Source: a bacterium
Lineage (GTDB): Bacteria > UBP6 > UBA1177
Assembly: GCA_017615095.1 (NCBI GenBank)
Contig: JAGAAT010000101.1
Span: forward strand, 1 to 32,572
Reading direction: 5' to 3'
DNA: 32,572 bases
Shown: piece by piece, positions 352 through 23,040 of the stretch
Layout: every line of letters starts with the position of its first letter
How positions within the stretch are numbered: position 1 is the stretch's first letter
The notes under the pieces: generated by a model
The model's input: only the letters and a program-made list of their open reading frames with translations
Databases searched by the model: none
What the model was told of the DNA's origin: nothing
Program-made: the position numbers and the translations under genes

Positions 352-2292
352 TTGTTTTTTTTGCGGTGCGATATGGAAGGTAAGCAGCTTACGACAAAAT
401 TTCCCTCTCTCTTCGGCAAATATTACCTGCTGGAGCTGGTAAACCTCGGTGGTATGGCCGAGATCTTCAAGGCAAAGATGTTCGGTGTCGAGGGCTTCGA
501 AAAGATCGTCGCGATCAAACGGATCCTGCCCGAAGTCGCAGTTGACGAAGAGTTCATCAAAATGTTTATCGATGAGGCCAAGATCGCCGTACGTCTGCAG
601 CACCCGAACATCGTCCAGATCTATGAGCTCGGAAACATCGACGGCTCCTACTTTATCGCGATGGAACTTGTCAACGGCAAGGATCTGAAGGTCATCCGCC
701 AGCGCCTGAAGAGAGTCGAGCTCCTGATGCCGGTCGAGCAGAGCGCATACATCATCTCTCAGGTCTGCGACGGTCTCGATTACGCACACCGCAAGACTGA
801 CGAGCACATGAATTCGCTCAACATCGTCCACCGTGATGTTTCGCCTCAAAATATCATCGTCTCCTACGAGGGAAACGTTAAGCTCATCGACTTCGGTATC
901 GCGAAGGCGCAGAGCAAATCCACAAAAACCCAGGCCGGGATGGTCAAGGGGAAGTTCAGCTATATGTCTCCCGAACAGGTCAACGGCAAGGTCCTGGACA
1001 GACGCAGCGATATCTTCTCGCTCGGCGTAGTCTTTTTCGAAATGCTCACCGGGAAGCGCCTTTTCCTCGGCAAGAGCGATGTCGAGACGCTTGAAAAGGT
1101 CCGTGCGGCCGAAGTCGTTCCGCCGAGTATGTTCAACAGCAGCGTTCCGCCGGAGATCGACAGGATCGTCATGAAGGCTCTGGCCCGCGAGCGCGAGGAC
1201 CGCTACCAGTGGGCGAGCGAATTTTCCGATGACCTGAAGAAGTTCAGCTACTCTTCGGACAAGCGTTTCTCGCGTCAGGACATGATGAATTTCATGAGCG
1301 AGTTCTTTGCCGACGAGCTTGAGGAGGAGACCGCAAAGCTCGAAAGCTATAAAAAGATCCCGAAGCCGCCCGAGGTCAAGACTCCTGCACCGGAATCCGC
1401 TCCGGCAGAAAGCAACACCTCTTCGATTTACGTCAACCGCAAGGCCAGCGATGCAAAGAAGGTCATGGCTATCCTGATCTCCGCGCTGGTCCTGATCGCT
1501 ATAACGATCACCGCTCTCGTTCTCGTGAAAAACCAGAAGGACGACACGGCGGCTCTGATAATCAACAGCGAGCCGCAGAAGACCATCGTCGTTCTGGACA
1601 AGGGGACAATGTACCAGAAACGCTGCGAGACTCCGTGCGTCATGGAGGGGCTTCTTCCCGGACAGCGCGAAATCGAGTTCTCACGCGAAGGCTACATCCC
1701 GCTGCGCGAAACGGTCATTCTCGGCAAGGGCGACAGGCTCGAAAAGTTCGTCAAGCTCTACAAGGTCGGCGAGCAGAAGACGATGATCACCGTCAAGTCC
1801 GATCCTGATAACGCGGTGCTTTACGTCAACGATAAAAAGGCGGCGTCGAACACTCCGACGGTCGTCAGCGATATCCCGGTCGGGATGGATGTCGTGGTCA
1901 GAGTCGAAAAACACGGCTACTATCCTTACGAGGAGAACATCGGAAAGGTCCCTGCGAACAGCAACAAGGAGCTGGAGATCATTCTTAAACCGATGAAAAA
2001 CGCTCCGGCGCCCCGCGAAAAGGATGTCAGGAAGGGCTCTTCAAAGTCTTCTGCGCAGGATAAGGCGCCTGTCGATTCATCTGAAACCGCATATATCACG
2101 ATCCAGGCGAATCCTTGGGCAAATGTATATCTCGACGGCAAGCTCATCGGCTCGACACCGATTTCAAAGTTCGCTCTGCCGGCAGGTTCGCACAAGATCC
2201 AGTTCAAGAATCCGAAATCGAAAATAGATAAGACTTTCCCCGTCGAACTGAAACCCGGCGAACATCACCGGATGGTTCAGAATTTCTACTGA
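352..2292 (+). CDS. Transmembrane Ser/Thr protein kinase with PEGA repeats
   Basis: This is a 646-residue Hanks-type kinase, predicted to sit in the inner membrane. The kinase domain spans about residues 22-300. It has a degenerate glycine loop (NLGGMAEIF), the VAIK lysine, catalytic loop HRDVSPQN (about 160-167), DFG (180-182) and SPEQ in place of APE. A Pro/Ala-rich linker precedes one membrane helix at about 371-393. The outer part carries three PEGA-like repeats, visible as CVMEGLLPGQREIEFSREGY, a second ending in HGYYPYEE and a third around VYLDGKLIGSTPI. PEGA domains are thought to bind surface structures or cell wall, so this is likely a sensor kinase. The start is TTG 352 with AGAAGGA just upstream; ATG 373 is an alternative but has no clear ribosome site. 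It ends in VQNFY, a tail echoed at the end of the second serpin. Confidence 0.93.
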   Translation: MFFLRCDMEGKQLTTKFPSLFGKYYLLELVNLGGMAEIFKAKMFGVEGFEKIVAIKRILPEVAVDEEFIKMFIDEAKIAVRLQHPNIVQIYELGNIDGSYFIAMELVNGKDLKVIRQRLKRVELLMPVEQSAYIISQVCDGLDYAHRKTDEHMNSLNIVHRDVSPQNIIVSYEGNVKLIDFGIAKAQSKSTKTQAGMVKGKFSYMSPEQVNGKVLDRRSDIFSLGVVFFEMLTGKRLFLGKSDVETLEKVRAAEVVPPSMFNSSVPPEIDRIVMKALAREREDRYQWASEFSDDLKKFSYSSDKRFSRQDMMNFMSEFFADELEEETAKLESYKKIPKPPEVKTPAPESAPAESNTSSIYVNRKASDAKKVMAILISALVLIAITITALVLVKNQKDDTAALIINSEPQKTIVVLDKGTMYQKRCETPCVMEGLLPGQREIEFSREGYIPLRETVILGKGDRLEKFVKLYKVGEQKTMITVKSDPDNAVLYVNDKKAASNTPTVVSDIPVGMDVVVRVEKHGYYPYEENIGKVPANSNKELEIILKPMKNAPAPREKDVRKGSSKSSAQDKAPVDSSETAYITIQANPWANVYLDGKLIGSTPISKFALPAGSHKIQFKNPKSKIDKTFPVELKPGEHHRMVQNFY

Positions 2293-2302
2293 TTTTAAGC
2301 TA

Positions 2303-2329
2303 TTGCTTTTTCCCCGTTTGAAGTACAAT
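2303..2329 (+). promoter_or_regulatory. Possible promoter of serpin 1
   Basis: TTGCTT (2303-2308), a 15-nt spacer and TACAAT (2324-2329) lie in the 118-nt gap after the kinase gene. The spacer is short, so this is tentative. A related GTTAAAGTACGATC segment lies upstream of serpin 3 near 5364-5376. Confidence 0.3.
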
Positions 2330-2383
2330 TACCTGTAATTTTTTTTTAAGGCGCACTGCGTTTTGAAAAAATTGCGGTCACAA

Positions 2384-2410
2384 TTACTGACTTTTCTGAT
2401 GGAGGTTCTC
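2384..2410 (+). promoter_or_regulatory. Conserved leader with ribosome site, serpin 1
   Basis: TTACTGACT at 2384-2392 is followed by TTTCTGATGGAGG and the ATG at 2411, with exactly 18 nt between the motif and ATG. The same leader precedes serpin 3. GGAGG at 2401-2405 fixes the start at 2411 rather than at an upstream in-frame TTG at 2363. Confidence 0.6.
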
Positions 2411-3781
2411 ATGAAAAGAAACATTTTTAAGCTGATGGCACTTGCATTTGTCTTTTTTCTGATGGTCAGCTGCGGCGGCTCTTCGAACGGCGACAATACG
2501 GACACAGGCGATTCCGGTGACACAACGGCTGATACGGGCGATACGACCGAGCCTGCGGATACCGGCGACACCGATGAGGGCAAGTGGGAAGCGAAGTACA
2601 AAAAGGCTGACGGACACGCTGATAAAGTTTCAAAGGATGTTGTCAAGGCGAACAACGATCTCGGAATGAAGCTCTTCAGCGCTCTTGCATCCGAAGAACC
2701 TGGCAAAAATATGATGATTTCACCGCTTTCGATCTCGATCGCTATGGCGATGGTCACAAACGGCGCATCCGGCGAAAACCTTGACGAAATGAAAAACGTC
2801 CTCGGCTTCGGCGATATGGATTTTTCCGAAATAAACGCTCAATTCGCCGATCTTGTCCAGAGTCTGGTCGAAGCTGACAAAGATCTGGTCCTTTCGATCG
2901 CGGATTCCGTATGGATGGATGACGAACTGGAACCGGATGTAAAGCAGGATTTCATTGATGTTCTCACGGAATTTTATGACGCGGCGTTTTTCACCGAAGA
3001 TTTCCAGGATGAGGCGACTGTCGGCAAGATAAATTCGTGGGTCTCCGAAAAAACTAACGGAAAAATCGAGAAAGTCATCGAAAAAATCGGTCCGCAGGCA
3101 GTCATGTATCTCATCAACGCGATCTATTTCAAGGCTGCGTGGACGACCTCTTTCGACAAAGAGAGCACTTATGAAGGCGCTTTCATCCTTTCCGACGGAA
3201 CGGAAGGCAAGGCAGACTACATGGCATTTGCTCCCGATCAGGAGGTCCCCGAGTTTAAAAATTATTCGACGGACTGGAGCGATGAAAACGGTTATTCAGT
3301 TGTCAGAATCCCCTACGGGCGTGATGTCTTTGCGTTTTACGGCATAGTTCCGAATCCTGGCAACAAAACAAATATAGACGAATTCATTAAGAAAATCGCT
3401 GAAAACGGTATTGATTCCTATTTTTCGCAGCTCGAAAAGGGCGGATTCCATGTCCAGCTCCCGAAGTTCAAGTTCGCTTACGACAAATCGCTTGTCGATG
3501 TCTTCAAGAGTTTGGGAATGGAAAAGGCTTTTGCTGAAGGAGGTCTTACGAATATCGCCGATGAACCGCACTCTCTGTTCATTTCAGATATTTTCCACAA
3601 GACATTTGTCGAAGTGAACGAAGAGGGTACCGAAGCGGCGGCGGTGACAGTTGTCGAAGTCGGTGAAAAAGCCGAGCCTTCAGGATTTTTTGCTAACCGT
3701 CCGTTCGTATTCGTGATCCGCGACGACAGAACGGGATCGGTCCTTTTCGTCGGAAAAGTAGAAAATCCGAAAGCTGAATAG
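2411..3781 (+). CDS. Serpin-family protease inhibitor, lipoprotein (serpin 1)
   Basis: A 456-residue serpin with a lipoprotein signal peptide (lipobox VSC, Cys21), a short Asp/Thr/Gly tether to about residue 55 and a full serpin fold. Visible family marks are the NAIYFKAAW strand, the hinge NEEGTEAAAVT and the C-terminal RPFVFVIRDDRTGSVLFVGKV. The Ala-rich, Thr-at-P14 hinge is that of inhibitory serpins, which trap a protease after loop cleavage. From the P15 Gly to the residue before PFVF the loop is 25 residues, which matches my memory of alpha-1-antitrypsin. That alignment puts Lys (codon 3668-3670) at P1 and predicts a trypsin-like target. It is probably displayed in the envelope or on the surface. 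Serpin 2 starts 32 nt downstream with its own ribosome site, so the two are probably cotranscribed. Confidence 0.93.
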   Translation: MKRNIFKLMALAFVFFLMVSCGGSSNGDNTDTGDSGDTTADTGDTTEPADTGDTDEGKWEAKYKKADGHADKVSKDVVKANNDLGMKLFSALASEEPGKNMMISPLSISIAMAMVTNGASGENLDEMKNVLGFGDMDFSEINAQFADLVQSLVEADKDLVLSIADSVWMDDELEPDVKQDFIDVLTEFYDAAFFTEDFQDEATVGKINSWVSEKTNGKIEKVIEKIGPQAVMYLINAIYFKAAWTTSFDKESTYEGAFILSDGTEGKADYMAFAPDQEVPEFKNYSTDWSDENGYSVVRIPYGRDVFAFYGIVPNPGNKTNIDEFIKKIAENGIDSYFSQLEKGGFHVQLPKFKFAYDKSLVDVFKSLGMEKAFAEGGLTNIADEPHSLFISDIFHKTFVEVNEEGTEAAAVTVVEVGEKAEPSGFFANRPFVFVIRDDRTGSVLFVGKVENPKAE

Positions 3782-3813
3782 GTGCTTCTGCAAACCTTCT
3801 AACGGAGATCAAA

Positions 3814-5334
3814 ATGAAAAAATCTATGATCCTTTTCACGGTTTTTACACTCTTTTTCCTCGTTTCGTGCGGCGGCGGCAGTAATGAAAACGGCGGCGAT
3901 ACTGCACCGGACGGAGACACAACTGACACAGGCGATTCCGGTGACACAACGGCTGATACCGGCGATACTGCACCGGACGGCGATACCGGAGAGACGGAAA
4001 CGGATGCCGATGCAACTGACACCGGTGATATCGGACCGGATGCGGATGAGGGCGATACCGAAGATCCGGCGTTGATACAGGCTTATTCAGTCGCCGATGC
4101 ACACGCAGAGGCTGTTTCAGCCGAGATCGTCAAGGCAAATACGAGGCTAGGGCTCAACATTTTTGAAAAGCTCGCGGTAGGAAAACACGAAAACATTATG
4201 ATTTCACCTCTTTCGATTTCGATCGCTATGGTGATGGCGGCGAACGGCACCGAAAACGAGTCTCTCGCCGAGATGAAGGAGGTCCTCGGGTACGGTGAGA
4301 TGGAGCTTCCGGCGGTGAACGAACAGTTCAGGGAGCTTATCGCAAGCCTTGTTTCTGCCGATAAGGATCTCGTTCTTGAGATCGCAAACTCGATCTGGCT
4401 CGACGATGCTATTGCGGATGAAATCAAAGAGGAGTTCATCGCTGTTCTTGAAGATAGTTACGACGCTGAGCTTTTCGAGGCAGATTTCGGCGATGATGCT
4501 ACAGTTGAGCTCATCAACTCCTGGGTTGCGGAAAAGACGCACGGCAAGATCGACAAAATTATTGACGGGATCGGTCCGGAGAGTGTCATGCACCTTATCA
4601 ACGCGGTCTACTTCAAGGCTACGTGGAGTGTAGCGTTCGACAAGGATGCGACTTTTAACAGAGAGTTCATTCTATCAGACGGAACCAAAACGGATGCCGA
4701 TTATATGGGCTTTTTTTCTAACGAGAAAAACATGGGCATAACATACGGGAACTATGTAATTTCGGGTCAGAATGTCGCCAGTGTCAGGATCCCATACGGC
4801 AGAGACGCGTTTGCCTTTTATGCGTATGTAGCCAATCCAGATTATGGCACTCCTGAGGACGAAGTCATCGGCGTTGACGAGATCATCGGCAAAATTGTTG
4901 AAAAGGGGCTGGAATGGTATCTCTCCTTCGCAAAACACATAGATTACACTATTCGTCTTCCCAAGTTCAAATTCGAGTATAATAAGTCTCTTAAGAATGT
5001 TTTTGAATCTCTCGGGCTTGAGAAACTTTTCGGAAGCGGAGGCATGTCGGCAGCTGCTCCTTCACTTTATGTGTCGGGAATCACTCATAAAACCTATATC
5101 GACGTGAACGAAGAGGGCACCGAAGCTGCGGCTGTCACGGATATAGACGTCGGTGATACCGGAGACGAAGGTCCCAACAGGTTTCAGGGTTTCTACGGCA
5201 AAAGACCATTCTTCTTCTTTATCCGCGACGAGAGGAACGGCACGATCCTTTTCATGGGCAAGGTCGAAAGACCCGAATACGAAGAGTGGTTCCTGAATTT
5301 CCGGTTTCGATCCAAGGTCAGAAATTTCTATTGA
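3814..5334 (+). CDS. Serpin-family protease inhibitor, lipoprotein (serpin 2)
   Basis: A 506-residue lipoprotein serpin starting at ATG 3814 behind GGAG (3804-3807); lipobox LVSC with Cys19. The acidic tether is longer than in serpin 1 (about residues 22-85, repeats of DGDT and DTGD). The serpin body includes NAVYFKATW, the hinge NEEGTEAAAVT and the end strand FFFFIRDERNGTILFMGKV. The reactive loop from P15 Gly to the residue before PFFFF is about 29 residues, four longer than in serpin 1, and acidic. By simple counting P1 would be Thr, so a target cannot be guessed safely. Most of the body is very close to serpin 3 (both contain AYSVADAHAEAVSAEIV). After the shared PEYEE end it carries 15 extra residues finishing in VRNFY, which look like the tail of the kinase gene at 2292. 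Confidence 0.92.
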   Translation: MKKSMILFTVFTLFFLVSCGGGSNENGGDTAPDGDTTDTGDSGDTTADTGDTAPDGDTGETETDADATDTGDIGPDADEGDTEDPALIQAYSVADAHAEAVSAEIVKANTRLGLNIFEKLAVGKHENIMISPLSISIAMVMAANGTENESLAEMKEVLGYGEMELPAVNEQFRELIASLVSADKDLVLEIANSIWLDDAIADEIKEEFIAVLEDSYDAELFEADFGDDATVELINSWVAEKTHGKIDKIIDGIGPESVMHLINAVYFKATWSVAFDKDATFNREFILSDGTKTDADYMGFFSNEKNMGITYGNYVISGQNVASVRIPYGRDAFAFYAYVANPDYGTPEDEVIGVDEIIGKIVEKGLEWYLSFAKHIDYTIRLPKFKFEYNKSLKNVFESLGLEKLFGSGGMSAAAPSLYVSGITHKTYIDVNEEGTEAAAVTDIDVGDTGDEGPNRFQGFYGKRPFFFFIRDERNGTILFMGKVERPEYEEWFLNFRFRSKVRNFY

Positions 5335-5425
5335 TTTTTCCTTTACTATTTTTTTTTTTTTTCGTTAAAGTACGATCATTGCTGTTTTTTCCGGGCATAT
5401 CGTGTCCGAATAAATCAGCGGTTAT

Positions 5426-5452
5426 TTACTGACTTTTCTGATGGAGGTTGTT
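5426..5452 (+). promoter_or_regulatory. Conserved leader with ribosome site, serpin 3
   Basis: TTACTGACT (5426-5434) plus 18 nt to ATG 5453, with GGAGG at 5443-5447. It is nearly identical to the serpin 1 leader over about 25 nt. The upstream ATG at 5441 overlaps the ribosome site and is not the start. A run of 14 T lies at 5349-5362, with no clear hairpin. Confidence 0.6.
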
Positions 5453-6910
5453 ATGAAAAGAGACATTTTTAAGCTTCTGGCTGCTGCACTTGTCCTCTTT
5501 CTGATGGCTGCCTGCGGAGGCGGTGACAAAAATGACGAGGATGCCCAGCCGGACGGAGACACAACGGACAGCGGTACTGTCGAGCCGACCGACACGGGCG
5601 ATACTGCGCCTGACGGTGATACCGGCGATACCGATCCTGACGGTGACATCGGAGACACGGAGACGGACGATGATAACGGTGACACCGAAGATCCTGCGGT
5701 GATGCAGGCTTATTCTGTTGCCGATGCACACGCAGAGGCTGTTTCAGCCGAGATCGTTGAGGCTAACACGAGGCTCGGGCTCAACATTTTTGAAAAACTC
5801 GCGGTCGGGAAACACGAAAACATTATGATCTCTCCGCTTTCGATTTCGATCGCTATGGCGATGGCGGCGAACGGCACCGAAAACGAATCTCTTGCCGAGA
5901 TGAAGGAGGTGCTCGGCTACGGCGAGATGGATCTTCCGACGGTGAACGAGCAGTTCAGAGAGCTTATCGCGAGCCTTGTTTCTGCGGATAAGGATCTCGT
6001 TCTTGAGGTCGCAAACTCGATCTGGGTCGATGAGATATTTTCCGAGGAGATCAGGGATGAGTTCATCACTGTTCTTGAGGAGAGTTACGACGCAGAACTT
6101 TTCAAGGCTGATTTCGGCGATGACGAGACGGTAGAACTCATCAACTCCTGGGTTGCGGAAAAGACGCACGACAAGATCGACAAGATCATCGATTCTATCG
6201 GTCCGCAGACTGTTATGCACCTCATCAACGCGGTTTACTTCAAGGCTGCGTGGAGTATCGCTTTCGACAAGGAGGCGACCTTTACCGCTAAGTTCATTCT
6301 TGCGGACGGAACATTAACGGATGCCGAATACATGGGCTTCAAGGAGTACAGCAGCCTGAACGGAGTTAAGTACGGCGACTATGTCATCTCGGATCAGGAT
6401 GTCGCCGGTGTCAGGATCCCATACGGCAGAGACGCATTCGCCTTTTATGCTTATGTCGCAAATCCATCTTTTGAGGCAGCGATCGACGGAGTTCTGACGG
6501 TTGACGAGATCATCAGCAATTTCGTAAAAAAGGGGAACTTCACCGGCTATATGCCCTCTGCTGCGCCGAATTATTACAAGATCCATCTCCCCAAGTTCAA
6601 ATTTGAGTATAAAGAGTCTCTCGTGGAGATTTTTAAATCTCTCGGGGTCGAGAAACTCTTTGAAGACGGCGGAATGTCGGCTGCTCATTCGGCTCTATAT
6701 GTTTCTGGAATCACTCACAAAACCTATATCGACGTGAACGAAGAGGGAACAGAGGCGTCGGCTGTCACGGATATAGAAGCCGATGTCGGCGGTCCTGAGA
6801 ATTTCCCCGGCTTCTACGGCAGAAGACCATTCTTCTTCTTCATCCGCGACGAGAGGAACGGCACGATACTCTTCATGGGCAAGGTCGAAAAGCCCGAATA
6901 CGAGGAGTAA
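5453..6910 (+). CDS. Serpin-family protease inhibitor, lipoprotein (serpin 3)
   Basis: A 485-residue lipoprotein serpin (lipobox MAAC, Cys21) with an acidic DGDTGD tether to about residue 85 and a full serpin domain: NAVYFKAAW, hinge NEEGTEASAVT and FFFFIRDERNGTILFMGKV. The loop from P15 Gly to the residue before PFFFF is 26 residues, acidic and Gly-rich (EADVGGPENFPG), and differs from serpins 1 and 2. By counting, P1 falls on Gly, so whether it is inhibitory against a common protease is doubtful, although the hinge is of inhibitory type. The body matches serpin 2 while the leader and the first residues of the signal peptide (MKRDIFKL against MKRNIFKL) match serpin 1, so the gene looks mosaic. 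It converges on the btuB-like gene with only 12 nt between stop codons. Confidence 0.92.
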   Translation: MKRDIFKLLAAALVLFLMAACGGGDKNDEDAQPDGDTTDSGTVEPTDTGDTAPDGDTGDTDPDGDIGDTETDDDNGDTEDPAVMQAYSVADAHAEAVSAEIVEANTRLGLNIFEKLAVGKHENIMISPLSISIAMAMAANGTENESLAEMKEVLGYGEMDLPTVNEQFRELIASLVSADKDLVLEVANSIWVDEIFSEEIRDEFITVLEESYDAELFKADFGDDETVELINSWVAEKTHDKIDKIIDSIGPQTVMHLINAVYFKAAWSIAFDKEATFTAKFILADGTLTDAEYMGFKEYSSLNGVKYGDYVISDQDVAGVRIPYGRDAFAFYAYVANPSFEAAIDGVLTVDEIISNFVKKGNFTGYMPSAAPNYYKIHLPKFKFEYKESLVEIFKSLGVEKLFEDGGMSAAHSALYVSGITHKTYIDVNEEGTEASAVTDIEADVGGPENFPGFYGRRPFFFFIRDERNGTILFMGKVEKPEYEE

Positions 6911-6922
6911 TTTCCCAAATCA

Positions 6923-9058
6923 TTAATTTTCAAGCTTCAAACCGATCCACGGGGTGATCCCCGGAGTCCCGTACTCGACCGAATAGGCGTAACTGTCGTT
7001 ATCCAGCATGTTGTCGATTTTTGCGAAGATCGTGACGAATTTGTGCACTTTCCAGGAGATCGCAAAGTTCAGCAGGACGAACTGGTCGACTTCGACGATG
7101 TACGGTGTTTTCGGATAGTTGTAGACCTCGTCGTTACGGACTCCGACATAGTCAAGACCAAGGAAAATATTTAATATTTTCTTGTAATTATAGTTTAGCT
7201 CCGCGCTGAATGTGTGCTTCGGACGGCGAAGCGGCGTGGTTTTGCTCTTGTACTTCCTGCCCTGATACTCCACGACTTTGTATTCGTTCAGCTTGAAGAT
7301 GAAGGTGTAGGCGGATTTGAAGCTCAGCCCCCAGAATGGTTTGGTCTGGAGCGAAAATTCGAGGCCGTGGTTTTCGATTCTGTAGTGATTTGAATACTTT
7401 CCGCTTTTGTCCAGGTCGATGTTGTTTATCTTGAGTTCATAAAAATAGCCGGCTTCAAGAAGGATTTTCCGCTTTACCAGATACTGCTGGATGACGCCGT
7501 CGAAGCCGTACGCGATCTCGTAAAGCAGCTCGTTGTAGAGGTCGGAATAGCGGCTGAAGCGCTGAAAAAGCGTCGGAGCTTTTGAGGCTCTCGCGAACCT
7601 TGCCTTGAACCCGAGTTCTATCGGCGTTTCATAGGCGATACCGGCCGAAAAGAGCGGTTCCGCCAGTTTTTTTGTCTTTGAAGGCAGCAGCTCGTCGGTG
7701 AGGCTGTCGAGGAGCGAGACCTGATAAAAGTTGGTCTGAAGCCTGAAACCGGCGTTTATCTCCAGTTTTTTCACTGGTTTGAAAATGTTCATCAGGTATA
7801 GCCCGAGTGCGAAGTCGGGGTTCGGCTTGAAGCTAAGGTCATACTTCCTGCCGCTTGAATAGTCTTCGTAATCGGCGATCCCGGCGGCAAGCTCGAACTT
7901 TATTCCCGCAAGGATCTCGTACCATTCGAGCGGCTTTAACGAGTTGTCCCAATCAAGGTTGAGAGTCAGCGCCTTGTAGAGGCTGTTCATGTCGCCGGTC
8001 ACCTTGCCCGCGTCTGCGGGATCGTCGTCGTAAAGCGCGTTGAGGTAGACCGACGCATTGAACTTGAGGTTCCAGAGCTTGTCGAAAAGGTCGGAATCTA
8101 TGCCGGTTTTGGCGGTAAGTGTCCTCGAACGCAGGATGCGGTTCGGGTCGTCGAGCCCGAGCCCGGGACCGTCGTCGATTTCGTATTTGCCGATGTCGGT
8201 GCGCAAAATCAGGTCCCACGTCGTCGCATCGCTGATGTCGACACCGCCCCGGAAGTAGATCTTTCCCTTGATCACGCCGTCGTTGTCGGGCGTTTTCGTG
8301 AAGAGGTTCTCCTTGACGCCGTGGTAGGAATCGGCTTCGGAAATGCCTTCGGTGTAGAAAAACGATCCTCCGCCGGAGTAGAAAAAACGCTCTTTCGAGC
8401 CGCGCACCGAGGCGTTGACGTTGAAGGTGTCCGGGACGAGCCGGTCGCTGCTCATGTCGAGAATGCCCGTCGAAATCGAGCTCACGAATTTAGGCTTTCC
8501 CGCCCCCTTTTTCGTGTGGATATCGATGACTCCGGCAATCGCGCCGCTACCGAAAAGAACGGGCTGAGGTCCCTTGAGAAGCTCTATCTTCGCAATGTCT
8601 TCTGGACTCTGGGCAAGATCCGCTGCGCCGTTCGGACTCACCGGGTTACGCATCGGAACACCGTCGACCAGCACGAGCACGTCCGCGCTCCGGAAGCCGC
8701 GCAGAAAGACATACTGCGACTGTCCGGTGTTGCCGCTGCCGTCGACGTAGACTCCCGCCATCTCCTTGATAGCGTCGCCCGTCGTGGTCGAAATTTTGTT
8801 TTCGATCTCGTTCGCGCTGATGGAAGCCTTTGCGGATGCGCCGTCCTGACTTTTGTTTTTTTTGCCGCGGACAGTGATCTCGTTTGCCGGATCTTTAGCC
8901 GGTTTCTTTTTTGTTTCAGCCTGCGTCTCAGTTTCGGTTTTCGGCTCTTCCTGCTGATTGGAAGTTGCCTCTTCCGAAACAGCCTGCTCTTCGGCGAACA
9001 TTGGGAAAAACAATAGTAAAATAAGATAGATGAGCGATTTTTTTAAGAGCCTCAGCAT
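6923..9058 (-). CDS. btuB: TonB-dependent outer-membrane receptor, BtuB-like (vitamin B12)
   Basis: A 711-residue receptor. The signal peptide (MLRLLKKSLIYLILLLFF) is followed by a Glu/Thr/Lys-rich stretch, a TonB-box-like EITVRG, a plug domain (about 55-175, with VFLRGFRSADVLVLVDGVPM and IELLKGPQPVLFGSGAIAGV) and a beta-barrel to the C terminus. The expected role is TonB-driven cobalamin uptake across the outer membrane. The B12 assignment rests mainly on the cobalamin riboswitch directly upstream, since the barrel alone cannot fix the ligand. The start at 9058 is set by GAGGAGG (9070-9076). A longer in-frame reading to 9181 would run through the riboswitch and is rejected. No BtuCDF or TonB genes are in the window. 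The protein ends in Asn rather than the usual terminal Phe. Confidence 0.88.
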   Translation of the reverse strand: MLRLLKKSLIYLILLLFFPMFAEEQAVSEEATSNQQEEPKTETETQAETKKKPAKDPANEITVRGKKNKSQDGASAKASISANEIENKISTTTGDAIKEMAGVYVDGSGNTGQSQYVFLRGFRSADVLVLVDGVPMRNPVSPNGAADLAQSPEDIAKIELLKGPQPVLFGSGAIAGVIDIHTKKGAGKPKFVSSISTGILDMSSDRLVPDTFNVNASVRGSKERFFYSGGGSFFYTEGISEADSYHGVKENLFTKTPDNDGVIKGKIYFRGGVDISDATTWDLILRTDIGKYEIDDGPGLGLDDPNRILRSRTLTAKTGIDSDLFDKLWNLKFNASVYLNALYDDDPADAGKVTGDMNSLYKALTLNLDWDNSLKPLEWYEILAGIKFELAAGIADYEDYSSGRKYDLSFKPNPDFALGLYLMNIFKPVKKLEINAGFRLQTNFYQVSLLDSLTDELLPSKTKKLAEPLFSAGIAYETPIELGFKARFARASKAPTLFQRFSRYSDLYNELLYEIAYGFDGVIQQYLVKRKILLEAGYFYELKINNIDLDKSGKYSNHYRIENHGLEFSLQTKPFWGLSFKSAYTFIFKLNEYKVVEYQGRKYKSKTTPLRRPKHTFSAELNYNYKKILNIFLGLDYVGVRNDEVYNYPKTPYIVEVDQFVLLNFAISWKVHKFVTIFAKIDNMLDNDSYAYSVEYGTPGITPWIGLKLEN

Positions 9059-9060
9059 TG

Positions 9061-9088
9061 GCAAATATCCCTCCTCGGGGCTGTTTGC
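9061..9088 (-). promoter_or_regulatory. Expression-platform hairpin enclosing the btuB ribosome site
   Basis: On the minus strand GCAAA (9088-9084) can pair with TTTGC (9065-9061), and the enclosed segment holds the GAGGAGG ribosome site with a CCC upstream that can pair with GGG. This suggests translational control through masking of the ribosome site when the aptamer binds ligand. Pairing was found by eye. Confidence 0.55.
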
Positions 9089-9089
9089 T

Positions 9090-9171
9090 GCGTGCGATGT
9101 ATCCGGCTTGCGTACAGCTTTACGGTTGCGGGACAGCATCGGAATCCCACCGATTTCCATCGTCTTCACGC
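9090..9171 (-). ncRNA. Cobalamin riboswitch aptamer (compact form)
   Basis: Read on the minus strand, the segment contains the conserved B12-riboswitch core: GGAAATCGGTGGGATTCC, then GATGCTGTCCCGCAACCGTAA, then the 3' box AAGCCGGATACATCGC. Closing stem: GCGTG (9171-9167) with CACGC (9094-9090), and CGATG (9162-9158) with CATCG (9099-9095), separated by a 4-nt bulge on one side. An internal hairpin pairs ATCGG (9154-9150) with CCGAT (9142-9138). Only about 10 nt separate the CCGTAA core from the 3' box, so the large peripheral arm of E. coli btuB-type aptamers is missing. It lies 32 nt upstream of the receptor start. Confidence 0.87.
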
Positions 9172-9179
9172 AATGCCGC

Positions 9180-9207
9180 AAGTTAAGTTTTAGAACGGCA
9201 ATGTCAA
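9180..9207 (-). promoter_or_regulatory. Promoter of the riboswitch-btuB transcript
   Basis: On the minus strand TTGACA lies at 9207-9202, with a 16-nt spacer and a weak -10 TAACTT at 9185-9180. Transcription would start just before the aptamer's first stem. Confidence 0.45.
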
Positions 9208-10964: not shown

Positions 10965-11673
10965 TGGCGCAGGAAGAAAAGAAAATTTATGTTTATGAAA
11001 ACTGGTCTTCCGAAATTCCACGGGAACTCGGTATTCTTTATGTCAACAATGTTCGCGTAACGGAGATCTTTTCGTTTGAATACAACGAAGAATATCTGAG
11101 AAATCCTACTTCATGCAGCATTGATCCTGAATTTCCAAACAGGGCAGCACATTTCTTGTCAAAAGATTCGATAGATCCGGCAGTCGCCGCATACATTTTT
11201 CTTCAGCGATGACGATGCTCGGAAAAGTTGACGGAGCTTCAGCAAAAGACGGCACGTCATATCTTGAAATAGCCGATTTTATTATAAAAAACGGTGCAGA
11301 TCCCAAAAACGACCTTGCTGAACTATGGAAAAGGATCGTTTTCAATATGACCGTTTCAAATACTGATGACCATCTTCGCAACCACGGTTTTCTTCTTTCT
11401 GCCAAAGGCTGGCGGCTTTCTCCCGCCTACGATATGAACCCGAATGCCATGGGTGACGGACTCGCATTGAATGTGAATGAAAACGATAATTCGATTGATA
11501 TCGATCTCGCGATTGATACCTGCCGGTTTTTTCATCTGGAAAAAGATGAAGCGGTACAAATTGCTGCTGACATGTCTCTTGCTGTCCGCAAAAATTGGGA
11601 GAAAACTGCCATGAAATACGGTGCAAGCCGTGCCATGATCGAACTTATGCGCCCTGCATTCGTCATGTCGTAA
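10964..11673 (+). pseudogene. hipA: hipA kinase toxin, internally deleted and frame-broken
   Basis: Two reading frames carry the two ends of one HipA-type kinase. Frame A (10964-11212) holds the N-terminal domain: VYENWSSEIPRELGILYVNN, then VTEIFSFEYNEEYL and DPEFPN, after which it drifts into unrelated residues and stops. Frame B, open from 11131, reads STFLVKRFDRSGSRRIHFSS and continues through the ATG at 11209 to 11673 with NTDDHLRNHGFLL (catalytic loop) and LSPAYDMNP (metal-binding Asp region). Full-length relatives have roughly 150-200 residues between these blocks, including the nucleotide-binding lobe. That part is absent and the flanks are out of frame, with the junction near 11130-11150. 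The toxin is therefore almost certainly inactive. A separate C-terminal protein from ATG 11209 (154 residues) could still be made, but would lack the ATP-binding lobe. Confidence 0.82.
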
Positions 11674-19048: not shown

Positions 19049-21844
19049 TCAGTTGCCTATCTTTGTCTGAAGGAACGTTACGGTTGAAAGATTGACGCGG
19101 TTGTAGACATCATCACCGCCGCCTACATCAGTTCCGTTGTAGCTTTTGAAATGTTCGAAGTAGGACATGTTCAGGTTGTCCTTTATCGTGAGCTTGTATG
19201 TTTTGCCCGCCTCGAGATCAATGCTGACGAATGAGGATTTGCCCCAGCGGTCCCAGTCGCCGGCGCCGAGGTGCGGCATGAAGATCATCCGGTTTTCAAC
19301 TATCTTCGTGCCGTTCTGATCCTCGACATCGATGAGCTTTGAGCAGCCCGTGATGCCGGTGTCGACAGGTCTTCCGCTGCCGTATTCGATCTCCAGAAGG
19401 TATGTGCCGCCTGAGGTCGGGGCGATGTTGCTGAGTGTCAGGGTCTCCGCCGGTCTGCCCCAGTCCGCAAAGTGCTGACGGTTGTGGTCGGAGGCGTTAG
19501 GAGCCTGGTCGAAATCTGTAGCTCCGAATGACAAAGCCGTGCGGCTGAAGCCCTCTCCCCAGTAGCAGATCGGGTCGGAGTGCTGAGCCTCAAGCCCGAA
19601 GGAGTTGACCGGAGCTACGCTGTAGCAGTGTGAAACCGTGGAATGATCGCTGGAATCCGGATCGGTCCACGGCGAGCCGGAAACGCCTGTCGCCGCCAGT
19701 CTGCCGTCACGGTAGATGTTGTATGTCATGTTTTGAGTGGTGCTCTGCGTGAAGCTGACCTTCAGCCTGCCTTCATCGAGGATCACGCCGTAGGGATCAA
19801 GCGGGATCTCGACAGGAAGCGGGGCATAGCAGGAATCCCCGATGTTGCAGTCGCGGAGGTCGATCGCGCCCGTTGATGCATCGTATTCAAGGTCGATTTC
19901 GACGGTGTTGGGCTCTTCGGTCAGGTCGCTTTCGGTAAATTCCTCAGTCCTGGCAACACCGTTGAGTTTGAGCGTACCAATTTGGTAGAAACCGTCTGCG
20001 CGCCCGTCGCGGACCGGCAGATTTATTGTGATTTTCAAAGTTTTGCCTCTGTATTCGAGGTCGGAGAGTTCGAGCTTTTCACTCTCCGCTAGAAAGCCGT
20101 TTCTGATCGAGACGGGGATCTTCGGCGAGAACCAGATGCCGTGAAGGCTCTGCTCTTTGCCGAAGAGCGAATCGAGAACGAGCGAAACGAAGCCGCCTAT
20201 GCTCCAGAGCTGACGGCGCGAGTTGACAACAGGACCGCTGAGTTCCGGGAACATCGTGTCGTGATAGTCCGCCGAAAGCGTCGTGAACTCGAGGTTTTCC
20301 ATGTTCGAGAGGTTGAGAGCCGCGCCGCGGACGAGGCTCATGAATGCGTTTTCGTAAAATTTGTCGTTGCCGGATTTCGCGGCCGATCTCAGGGCGTATG
20401 CGGTCACGAAAGGCCAGACCGCACGGTTGTGGTAGATGCGTGTCGCCGGCTCCTGCGGGAAGACGACTGACGGACCTGCTGCTGTGACAGGATAGCTTTT
20501 CGTGATTTCGAGAGCCTCGTTTTCGCTGACGATTCCGGTCAGGATGGCAAGCGATTCACCGAGCAGATCACGTTTTTCGACGGGTGAAGCGTCCAGGAAT
20601 GTTGTAGCGAACGACGAGAATTTCTTCGCTTCGGCGTTGTAGAATTTCGCCCTGATCCTGCTCCTCAGTTCACCTGCCCAGCCGCTGAATTTAGCTGCTT
20701 CGGAGTTTTTCCCGAGCTCAGTCGCAAGTTCAGCCGCGCTTTCTATCGCGATGAGGTGCGCCACGTTAGTCGAGAGTGATTTCGACATCCCGATGTGCCT
20801 GGTGTCGGCTGCCGTCCATGTCGGATAGGTCTGTTCGCGCCAGTCGAGGAACGATGTCTCGCCGGTGTAGATGCCGTCAGTCTGGTCAAAAATCATCGCA
20901 CGGTCGAACTCGACGGTGTTTTTTATCGCCTCGTAAGCCGTTGCCAGAAATTCGGTGTAATCGGAACCGCTCAGGTTTTTCAGGACCTCTTCGGCTCCGA
21001 TCGCCCAGATGACGCGGTCTGTGCTTATCGGCCACGAGCCGCCGCTTCCGGTATCCTGAACGATTTGCGGAGAGCCGCCTCCGACAGTTGCTTTTTTCGC
21101 CGAAATTTTGAAGTTCAGCGAGTTGCGGGAGCGCAGCGGATCGACCATTGCGAGACCGAGATCGACTGCGTATGCGGTGTCGCGAGTCCAGACGTAGTGC
21201 CAGTTTTCACCCGTCTCGAAGCAGTTGCAGTCAATCGGATTACCGTGGTTGAAAGATCCGTCGTTTATTGATGTCACGCTGTCCTGCTGAGCCTCCTCTA
21301 GTGCCATCGCGAAGAGGGCGTCGAGCATCGTAACGCCGCTGCGGAGCCTCATCCTGCCGGGCATTTCGGAGAATGTGCGGCTCTTCGATGCCGGTGTGTT
21401 GTCGCGAAGCTCGGCAGTCGTCGTGAGTGTGTAGGTCCTGAGTCCGCCGCCTGTCGCAGTGACGGTAGCCGTATCGTTGTTCCATACGATCGTTCCCGTT
21501 GACGGGTCCGACCCTGTGTCGCCGTCCGGTCCGGTGTTGCCGGTGTCTCCGTCGGGTTCGGTGTCACCCGTGTCGCCGTCAGGCTCGGAGTCACCTGAAT
21601 CGGAAGAGTCTCCGTCAGTTTCAGGTTCACCGCTGTCACCGTCCGGTTCCGTGTCGCCGTTGTCTGTCGGCTCGGAGTCACCTGAATCGGAAGAGTCCCC
21701 GTCGCCGAATGCCGTATCGGCGGAATCTTCATCGGTTACTGCGTCTTCGTCTGCGTGATCCGGCGGGGTATTGTTCGAACCGCCGCACGAAACAAGCGCG
21801 AATGCCGCTGCAAAAACAGCTAAAATCACAAACAGTTTTTTCAT
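19049..21844 (-). CDS. Six-hairpin (alpha/alpha)6 glycosidase-like lipoprotein
   Basis: A 931-residue lipoprotein (lipobox LVSC, Cys20). An acidic Asp/Gly/Ser/Pro tether of about 70 residues (45-117) is followed by a large helical catalytic module at about 165-640. ENWHYVWTRDTAYAVDLGLA, SFLDWREQTYPTW and IYHNRAVWPFVTAYAL recall (alpha/alpha)6 glycosidases such as debranching enzymes or GH15/GH63-type hydrolases. I cannot name the GH family or substrate. The C-terminal third holds beta-sandwich domains: a fibronectin-III-like part (NMTYNIYRDGRLAATG) and a carbohydrate-binding-like domain at the end. The start at 21844 is set by ATGGAG; a longer reading to 22003 is rejected because it enters the upstream gene. 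It lies 86 nt after the EGF-domain lipoprotein and is probably cotranscribed with it. Confidence 0.75.
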   Translation of the reverse strand: MKKLFVILAVFAAAFALVSCGGSNNTPPDHADEDAVTDEDSADTAFGDGDSSDSGDSEPTDNGDTEPDGDSGEPETDGDSSDSGDSEPDGDTGDTEPDGDTGNTGPDGDTGSDPSTGTIVWNNDTATVTATGGGLRTYTLTTTAELRDNTPASKSRTFSEMPGRMRLRSGVTMLDALFAMALEEAQQDSVTSINDGSFNHGNPIDCNCFETGENWHYVWTRDTAYAVDLGLAMVDPLRSRNSLNFKISAKKATVGGGSPQIVQDTGSGGSWPISTDRVIWAIGAEEVLKNLSGSDYTEFLATAYEAIKNTVEFDRAMIFDQTDGIYTGETSFLDWREQTYPTWTAADTRHIGMSKSLSTNVAHLIAIESAAELATELGKNSEAAKFSGWAGELRSRIRAKFYNAEAKKFSSFATTFLDASPVEKRDLLGESLAILTGIVSENEALEITKSYPVTAAGPSVVFPQEPATRIYHNRAVWPFVTAYALRSAAKSGNDKFYENAFMSLVRGAALNLSNMENLEFTTLSADYHDTMFPELSGPVVNSRRQLWSIGGFVSLVLDSLFGKEQSLHGIWFSPKIPVSIRNGFLAESEKLELSDLEYRGKTLKITINLPVRDGRADGFYQIGTLKLNGVARTEEFTESDLTEEPNTVEIDLEYDASTGAIDLRDCNIGDSCYAPLPVEIPLDPYGVILDEGRLKVSFTQSTTQNMTYNIYRDGRLAATGVSGSPWTDPDSSDHSTVSHCYSVAPVNSFGLEAQHSDPICYWGEGFSRTALSFGATDFDQAPNASDHNRQHFADWGRPAETLTLSNIAPTSGGTYLLEIEYGSGRPVDTGITGCSKLIDVEDQNGTKIVENRMIFMPHLGAGDWDRWGKSSFVSIDLEAGKTYKLTIKDNLNMSYFEHFKSYNGTDVGGGDDVYNRVNLSTVTFLQTKIGN
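21494..21712 (-). repeat. Acidic tether repeats in the glycosidase lipoprotein
   Basis: Imperfect repeats encoding DSGDSEP, EPDGDTGD and related units between the lipid anchor and the catalytic module. They are coding repeats, not an intergenic array. Confidence 0.75.
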
Positions 21845-21865
21845 CTGTATCTCCATCAATCCTTT

Positions 21866-21894
21866 AAAAAAAACGATAAATTTTAGGGATTTAT
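21866..21894 (-). terminator. Weak possible terminator between the two lipoprotein genes
   Basis: On the minus strand ATAAAT (21894-21889) can pair with ATTTAT (21881-21876), followed by eight T (21873-21866). The stem is AT-only, so at most it would attenuate. Confidence 0.25.
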
Positions 21895-21930
21895 GATCGG
21901 ATGACAAGGATTTTCGGCAGGGTGTGGGGA

Positions 21931-23040
21931 CTAGTTGATCGTTGCCTGTCCCGGAGTGTTGGTTGCAGAGGTGATTATCGCCGGGGTCGTGTCCGCATAC
22001 CACCAGCTTACGCCGTTGTCGAGCGAGAATCTGAAGATGTAGATGAAGCTTCCGGCTGCGTTTGTCGGGAAGTCTGCCATATATTCATGGTTGTTGTCGC
22101 CTGAGTGACCGGAATTGAATACAGCATCTACTTTGTTCCAAGTTCCTGCAATGACAGGATATTCAGCACTGCCGGTCCCTTCTTTGTAAAGCAGCTGAGC
22201 CTTCCACTCAGCGTGTTGGGGAACTTCAGAACCCGTCTGTCCTTCAACGTAAATCTGCCCGTAGACCTTCTTGTCAGCAGCATCGCTCGTGATCGTCGAC
22301 GGCCACTGGATGCCTACCCAGCCGGCAACGCTTGCACCTGTGATTTCGGTGCAGCTCGTGTTGTTGTCGTAATAACCGCTTGTGCAGTTGCATTTCGCAG
22401 CGCCGGATTCGACTGTGCAGACTCCTCCGTTTCCGCATTCAACACCTTCGCATAGGTCGGGTTCAACACAGATGTTGTGGGAGCAGATCTCGCCGGGATT
22501 GCAGTCGCCGTTTGCCATGCAGCCGAGTGAGGGGATCTCACTGTCGCCGTCGGTTTCAGGTTCTGTCGTGTCGCTGTCGGTTGCCGGCTCTACTGTGTCA
22601 CCGTCAGTTCCGGGGAGTTCGGCATCGTCAGGCTCAGTTCCTTCGTTGTCACTGTCAGTTTCCGGTTCTCCGTCGTCGCCTGCGGTGTCGCCGTCGGTCT
22701 CGGGTTCTGTCGTGTCGCCGTCGGTTTCAGGTTCAGTCGTGTCACTGTCAGTCTCGGGTTCTGTTGTGTCGCTGTCGGTTTCAGGTTCGGTGGTGTCACC
22801 GTCGGTTTCAGGTTCTGTCGTGTCGCCGTCAGGCTCAGGTTCGCCGGTGTCGGTCGGTTCGGTGTCGCCGGTATCGGTCGGTTCGGTGCTGCCGGTATCG
22901 GTCGGCTCTGTAGTGTCTTCGTCGGAAACCGTAGTTCCGTCGGAATCATTCTGGTCCTCGTTTGACTTGCTCGATCCGCAGGCACTCAGAAAGATGATGG
23001 CGAGTGCGAGCATCGCAATCAAAAACAGATTTTTTTTCAT
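21931..23040 (-). CDS. Lipoprotein with acidic repeats, a 4-Cys motif and an EGF-like domain
   Basis: A 369-residue lipoprotein (lipobox LSAC, Cys21). Residues 43-167 are a repeat tether built largely on the octad TEPETDGD or TEPETDSD. Next comes a four-Cys module (Cys174, 180, 186, 191), then a textbook EGF-like domain with six cysteines at 197, 202, 208, 217, 219 and 230 (spacing 4, 5, 8, 1, 10). The C-terminal 130 residues (IQWPS ... YGQIYVEGQTGS ... FSLDNGVSWWYAD) look like a beta-sandwich that I cannot assign, possibly carbohydrate- or surface-binding. It probably acts as a surface adhesin or accessory to the glycosidase encoded downstream. The start at 23040 follows ATGGAGAAC at good spacing. 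Confidence 0.78.
   Translation of the reverse strand: MKKNLFLIAMLALAIIFLSACGSSKSNEDQNDSDGTTVSDEDTTEPTDTGSTEPTDTGDTEPTDTGEPEPDGDTTEPETDGDTTEPETDSDTTEPETDSDTTEPETDGDTTEPETDGDTAGDDGEPETDSDNEGTEPDDAELPGTDGDTVEPATDSDTTEPETDGDSEIPSLGCMANGDCNPGEICSHNICVEPDLCEGVECGNGGVCTVESGAAKCNCTSGYYDNNTSCTEITGASVAGWVGIQWPSTITSDAADKKVYGQIYVEGQTGSEVPQHAEWKAQLLYKEGTGSAEYPVIAGTWNKVDAVFNSGHSGDNNHEYMADFPTNAAGSFIYIFRFSLDNGVSWWYADTTPAIITSATNTPGQATIN
22540..22914 (-). repeat. 24-bp coding tandem repeat array
   Basis: Degenerate tandem repeats with a 24-bp period encode octapeptides of the type TEPETD(G/S)D, five of them consecutive, flanked by shorter TEPTDTGD units. The array invites slippage, so copy number may vary between strains. 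Confidence 0.85.

Follow-up and report, generated by a model that had tools for sequence, protein, structure and literature searches.

Like the proteins described here, the serpin miropin of Tannerella forsythia has been reported to be a lipoprotein. Its structure is available (PDB 5ncs and related entries), it is placed in group T in the phylogeny of Spence et al. (2021), and its reactive loop, with 29 residues in the PDB alignment, is longer than 25. Miropin is reported to act on proteases of both host and bacterial origin, its targets including neutrophil elastase, cathepsin G, trypsin, papain, gingipain, and subtilisin (PMC6718151), and its loop sequence is reported to be the same in ancient as in modern strains of this one species (PMC7296668). 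An unpublished analysis quoted in the latter article attributes at least 12 serpins with varied loops to two oral Tannerella taxa; as in the lineage studied here, these taxa, which belong to another phylum, thus have many paralogues with differing loops, their gene order, recombination, and rates not being described there (PMC7296668). Other prokaryotic inhibitory serpins include tengpin (Thermoanaerobacter), chloropin (Chlorobium limicola), which forms complexes with proteases (PMC10090351), and the siropins (Eubacterium siraeum). Membrane-anchored prokaryotic serpins are a recognized category, and the reason why some bacteria keep serpins has been called enigmatic (PMC8233489).

The locus described here carries three adjacent genes, hereafter S1, S2, and S3, for serpins with a lipoprotein signal. 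Miropin, in contrast, is not described as part of a tandem array (PMC7296668), nor do the passages considered on tengpin, chloropin, and the siropins speak of lipid-anchored arrays in tandem. A triplet does exist in the gut Clostridia isolate pig4.7 (locus L037, 5927-10614), an unrelated pig-gut genome in which three consecutive serpins with different loops form an independent array; where the serpins studied here have a lipid anchor, each of these has a type I dockerin (cellulosome-type docking), and they are only 30-34% identical to S2. In animals, the clustered genes SERPINB3 and SERPINB4 arose by recent duplication and their products act on different proteases; their divergence is reported as adaptive (PMC4136820), in contrast with the loop dN/dS values below 1 of the present array. 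S1-S3 are thus further members of an established type of bacterial inhibitor, set apart by unusually clear evidence for in-place recombination and by a P1 pattern that can be tested.

Domains, anchor, and reactive loops

The stretch of DNA that was analyzed (the window, 32,572 nucleotides) is the entire contig C27 of a 1.69-Mb genome, 73% complete, from an uncultured bacterium of UBP6 type. It contains, at the positions announced in a preliminary description made from the sequence alone, three consecutive and complete serpin ORFs (Table 1), all with full-length matches to PF00079 (336, 286, and 286 bits for S1, S2, and S3, respectively, for a curated cut-off of 27), while an NCBIfam search of the three proteins assigned no family. 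AlphaFold2 models of S1 and S2 are of moderate confidence (pTM 0.76 and 0.71), with disordered reactive loops, and the top PDB matches listed by Foldseek for both models are serpins (E about 1e-32). The best structural neighbor of the S1 model is native miropin (E=1.9e-32; about 31% identity), and tengpin is a close PDB match. Residues that are invariant across 11 aligned serpins are retained in S2 and S3. Scans for promoters and terminators gave no clear excess over shuffled sequences.

Table 1. Features of the serpin array and its immediate surroundings (positions in the window).
Feature	Position	Strand	Description and basis
Ser/Thr kinase with PEGA repeats, upstream of the array	352..2292	+	Pfam; synteny
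S1 leader; takes in the final 13 bases and TGA stop of the kinase gene	2277..2410	+	Homologous to the S2-S3 gap; boundary of the repeat unit
S1, lipoprotein serpin	2411..3781	+	Pfam PF00079, E=3.9e-100; P1 Lys by count; loop GTEAAAVTVVEVGEKAEPSGFFANR; member of orthologue group A1 (12 genomes; tree)
Crossover point of the UBA1209 chimera	2821..2822 in S1, joining the S2 copy at 4305/4306	+	Both in one alignment column
S2, lipoprotein serpin	3814..5334	+	Pfam PF00079, E=7.2e-85; P1 Thr by count; loop GTEAAAVTDIDVGDTGDEGPNRFQGFYGKR
15-codon C-terminal tail of S2, WFLNFRFRSKVRNFY	5287..5331	+	Follows the normal end PEYEE; TAG-to-TGG stop loss
Second copy of the kinase-tail and leader unit, ahead of S3	5318..5440	+	Leader alignment
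S3, lipoprotein serpin	5441..6910	+	Pfam PF00079, E=5.2e-85; P1 Gly by count; loop GTEASAVTDIEADVGGPENFPGFYGRR
TonB-dependent receptor, convergent flank of the array	6923..9181	-	Pfam; synteny with UBA1209

In agreement with the earlier reading of these genes, the three proteins start with a hydrophobic stretch and a lipobox (MVSC in S1, LVSC in S2, MAAC in S3; pattern match), followed by an Asp/Thr/Gly-rich tether. A lipid anchor follows from the lipobox, and exposure at the surface of the envelope is putative. The idea that the acidic tether is peculiar to the serpins was rejected, as similar tethers are present on other lipoproteins: within the window, two minus-strand lipoprotein genes (19049-22003 and 21931-23040), one of them for a putative glycoside hydrolase, encode a tether of this Asp/Thr/Gly type. 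Because it is common to unrelated lipoproteins of the lineage, the composition of the tether is uninformative with regard to serpins or to exposure on the outer face; it looks like a lineage-wide feature of lipoproteins and is possibly an export or spacer signal.

The hinge of inhibitory serpins follows the consensus ExGTEAAAA from P17 to P9, with small residues at P12-P9 (Spence et al., 2021). All three proteins do have the inhibitory-type hinge noted previously (EEGTEAAAVT in S1 and S2, EEGTEASAVT in S3), and they fit this consensus (EEGTEAAAV twice, EEGTEASAV once) with Val at P9, as in miropin, which shares EEGTEAAAVT with S1 and S2 without a single difference. When loop length is counted from P15 to the residue preceding PF, the 25 residues given in the preliminary description are correct for S1, while S2 has 30 rather than 29 and S3 27 rather than 26; S2 and S3 are in this respect similar to miropin. 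The S1 loop fits the canonical length of 25, with a K-A bond at the predicted cleavage site, and the loops of S2 and S3 hold five and two extra residues, respectively. A 17-residue count starting at the P17 Glu returns the P1 residues proposed earlier (Table 1), but because of these extra residues P1 is uncertain for S2 and S3, and that of S2 moves by five residues if counted back from the PF anchor. Structure prediction, which had been put forward as a way to fix P1, bore out the serpin fold and left P1 unassigned, as the modeled loops are disordered and of low confidence. The P7-P1 segments of S2 and S3 are acidic, which would suit few familiar proteases.

Origin of the array by duplication and recombination

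Local alignment of positions 2277-2407 with 5318-5449 scored 53, while none of 200 shuffles exceeded 26. The S1 leader and the S2-S3 gap being homologous, the duplicated unit extended from the 3' end of the kinase gene through a serpin gene. The C-terminal tail of S2 bears the trace of this event: it closes with what is left of the kinase 3' end (NFY, TGA), NFY being also the end of the kinase itself, and the sister genome UBA1209 of UBP6 (G005) retains TAG where S2 has TGG. An orthologue of the PEGA kinase (about 70% identical) is also found upstream of a serpin of a different type in three relatives (L055, L059, and L072), so that kinase and serpin form a recurrent neighborhood.

In UBA1209, the syntenic flanks (kinase 97%, TonB receptor 90%, and FtsX 90% identical) enclose two serpin genes only, the first of which is an in-register chimera of S1 and S2. 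To the left of the break, this gene matches S1 at 130/136 informative sites, and to its right it matches S2 at 362/376 (Fisher p=1.6e-96); the chimera thus directly attests that neighboring serpins have recombined. Deletion by homologous crossing-over would be the simplest history of the UBA1209 locus; as to its direction, the state with three genes is probably the older one, because the 3' half of S1 groups with the A1 serpins of other genomes (see below). In addition, one tract of the second UBA1209 serpin is closer to S2 than to S3, which suggests gene conversion.

Distribution in the lineage and evolution of the loops

That serpins are uncommon in bacteria, as stated initially, is generally fair (3/14 control genomes) but does not apply to this lineage, where they were detected in 19/19 genomes of the family and 26/28 of the phylum. 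There are up to six serpin matches per family genome, and six in the genome of the window, one being truncated at the edge of a contig. Serpin genes lie next to each other in 9/15 genomes of the genus (G000, G005-G011, and G015, the pair being fragmented in G007) and in 0/4 genomes of sister genera. In related genomes, where the same array was to be looked for, neighboring serpins recur, with a content that shifts between close relatives; within the 19 genomes of the family, a triplet is present in the window only. A search of plasmids returned only distant serpins, the best being about 32% identical.

In a tree built on scaffold residues, i.e., excluding loop and tether, S1 falls in group A1 (12 genomes), whose usual tandem partner elsewhere is group A2, and group B contains both S2 and S3. 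Among the genomes searched, an S2 orthologue was found in UBA1209 only, and loops resembling that of S3 are also present in G006 and G007 (RCL alignment). The remaining paralogue groups carry loops of their own; loops are therefore specific to a group and largely conserved within it. In G006 and G007, the S3-like serpin gene is convergent with a lipoprotein gene (L054, 4470-6689, and L057, 4267-6393) whose product appears, by eye, to be prolyl oligopeptidase-like. Degenerate hinges, GAESGAYAY and GTESAGYTY, were observed in serpins of L073 and L074 (G015) and of L056 (G007), which are candidates for a lost inhibitory function. A divergent group of serpins (L050, L067, L069, L076, and L078) has the hinge MDEKGVEASAVT and loops that contain Cys or are long, and several of its members are located near a gene for alanyl-tRNA synthetase or oligopeptidase F.

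The preliminary description had also proposed that the loops are diversifying, and this is supported by some comparisons only. Between the paralogues S2 and S3, loops differ at 9/19 positions (0.474) and scaffolds at 81/354 (about 0.227), a roughly two-fold difference that places the loop in the top 5% of 11-residue windows. The orthologues of the array behave differently: they show loops no faster than the scaffold, the pattern named in the preliminary description as an argument against diversification, and accelerated loop evolution as a general rule was rejected for them. For S2 and S3, each represented by a single pair with UBA1209, differences amount to 0/22 in the loop (identical) versus 38/354 in the scaffold, and to 2/19 versus 46/355, respectively; for S1 and its 11 orthologues, the values are 0.24 for the loop and 0.19 for the scaffold. 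In every comparison dN/dS is below 1, with loop values of 0.10-0.17 for the S1 and S3 orthologues and no change at all in the S2 loop. Since loops have diverged beyond the scaffold between paralogues and not between orthologues, divergence accompanied duplication, the loops being held thereafter.

Among complete genes of groups A1 and A2, positions P15-P8 of the hinge are invariant. Past the hinge, the loop changes at 0.165 per site versus 0.155 for the scaffold in A1, and at 0.314 versus 0.162 in A2, with a loop dN/dS of 0.15 in the latter group. Of the 375 alignment columns of A2, only one varies more than P1 (K, N, S, or G), while P6, P5, P4, and P5' are fixed; as judged from this alignment, turnover of P1 is real in at least this one group. 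In A1, P1 is Asn in 10/12 sequences, the exceptions being Lys in the window and Ser in RGIG9961 from yak reticulum (G011).

Proposed function and possible targets

By a small margin over the even, we lean toward a reading of S1-S3 as lipid-anchored inhibitory serpins that form a recombined tandem array, and would provide a fixed set of a few traps protecting the cell surface against environmental proteases. The N-terminal lipid and the flexible acidic tether would hold the serpins at the cell envelope; upon attack of the exposed loop by a protease, the cleaved loop would insert into beta-sheet A and the protease would stay covalently bound. From established serpin biology, a hinge identical to that of miropin is expected to support the same suicide mechanism. 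The array grew through tandem copying of a unit that comprises a serpin, its leader, and the 3' tail of the kinase gene, and crossing-over and gene conversion between neighbors would have reworked it into paralogues with different loops, and therefore probably with different target proteases. As each loop is mostly conserved after duplication, the array would be a fixed small panel rather than a rapidly mutating arms-race locus. The varied loops would favor several targets, most likely environmental.

A less probable, yet serious, alternative is that the main targets are the secreted subtilases of the lineage itself, with serpins protecting the envelope from these endogenous enzymes or regulating them. 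Its seriousness comes from the orthologue, in 19/19 family genomes, of a subtilase of about 488 aa with an apparent signal peptide (in the genome of the window on contig C79, 68% identical), and from one locus in G017 (L077, G017:C72, 176-3099), where the gene of this subtilase starts 8 bases past the stop of an S1-orthologous serpin gene in an operon-like manner. Moreover, several S8 subtilases are encoded in every genome of the family, with seven matches in that of the window, and miropin, an inhibitor of subtilisin, has been suggested to guard against both host and endogenous proteases (PMC6718151). A constant serpin-protease gene pair was nevertheless rejected, since the pairing is seen in only 1/12 S1-type loci, most others adjoining cysteinyl-tRNA synthetase or other genes, and one conserved subtilase fails to explain either three loops or the varied P1 of A2. 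The neighbor of about 480-510 aa that recurs in seven genomes belongs to one family and is not a protease, two of its members having been scanned and matching cysteinyl-tRNA synthetase.

It is conceivable, but we consider it rather doubtful, that the array acts as a specificity cassette driven by recombination, in which in-register crossovers would swap the halves carrying signal, tether, and N-terminal region with the loop-bearing C-terminal halves, and point changes, concentrated at P1, would further tune the surface panel to local proteases. The lineage offers serpins that are universal in the family, distinct groups with conserved loops, gain and loss of copies by recombination, and one apparent serpin-subtilase operon; the choice between own subtilases and foreign targets, as well as the role of P1 turnover, is therefore directly testable with recombinant proteins.

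It is improbable that S1 alone has remained inhibitory, with S2 and/or S3 having drifted toward a non-inhibitory role as substrate, decoy, or structural protein. The two proteins do have longer loops (30 and 27 residues) with acidic P7-P1 segments and lower Pfam scores, S3 has Ser at P11, S2 has a C-terminal tail, and hinges have degenerated in some relatives of other groups (e.g., GAESGAYAY in G015). However, the hinges of S2 and S3 are both intact and conserved in their orthologues, the residues invariant among the 11 serpins are kept, and the loop of miropin, which is inhibitory, likewise exceeds 25 residues. Finally, an assembly artefact of the metagenomes as the source of the three-gene arrangement or of the UBA1209 chimera is very hard to credit, even with two incomplete and fragmented genomes and similar serpin genes, since scaffold residues differ by 23% between S2 and S3 and by 47% between S1 and S2, the S1/S2 junction of UBA1209 has no long identical stretch to mislead an assembler, and the same flanking genes enclose both arrays.

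Elsewhere in the window, the ORF at 11209-11673 aligns with the HipA C-terminal domain over the end of the model only (positions 86-213 of 213) and is perhaps a truncated HipA-type toxin gene.
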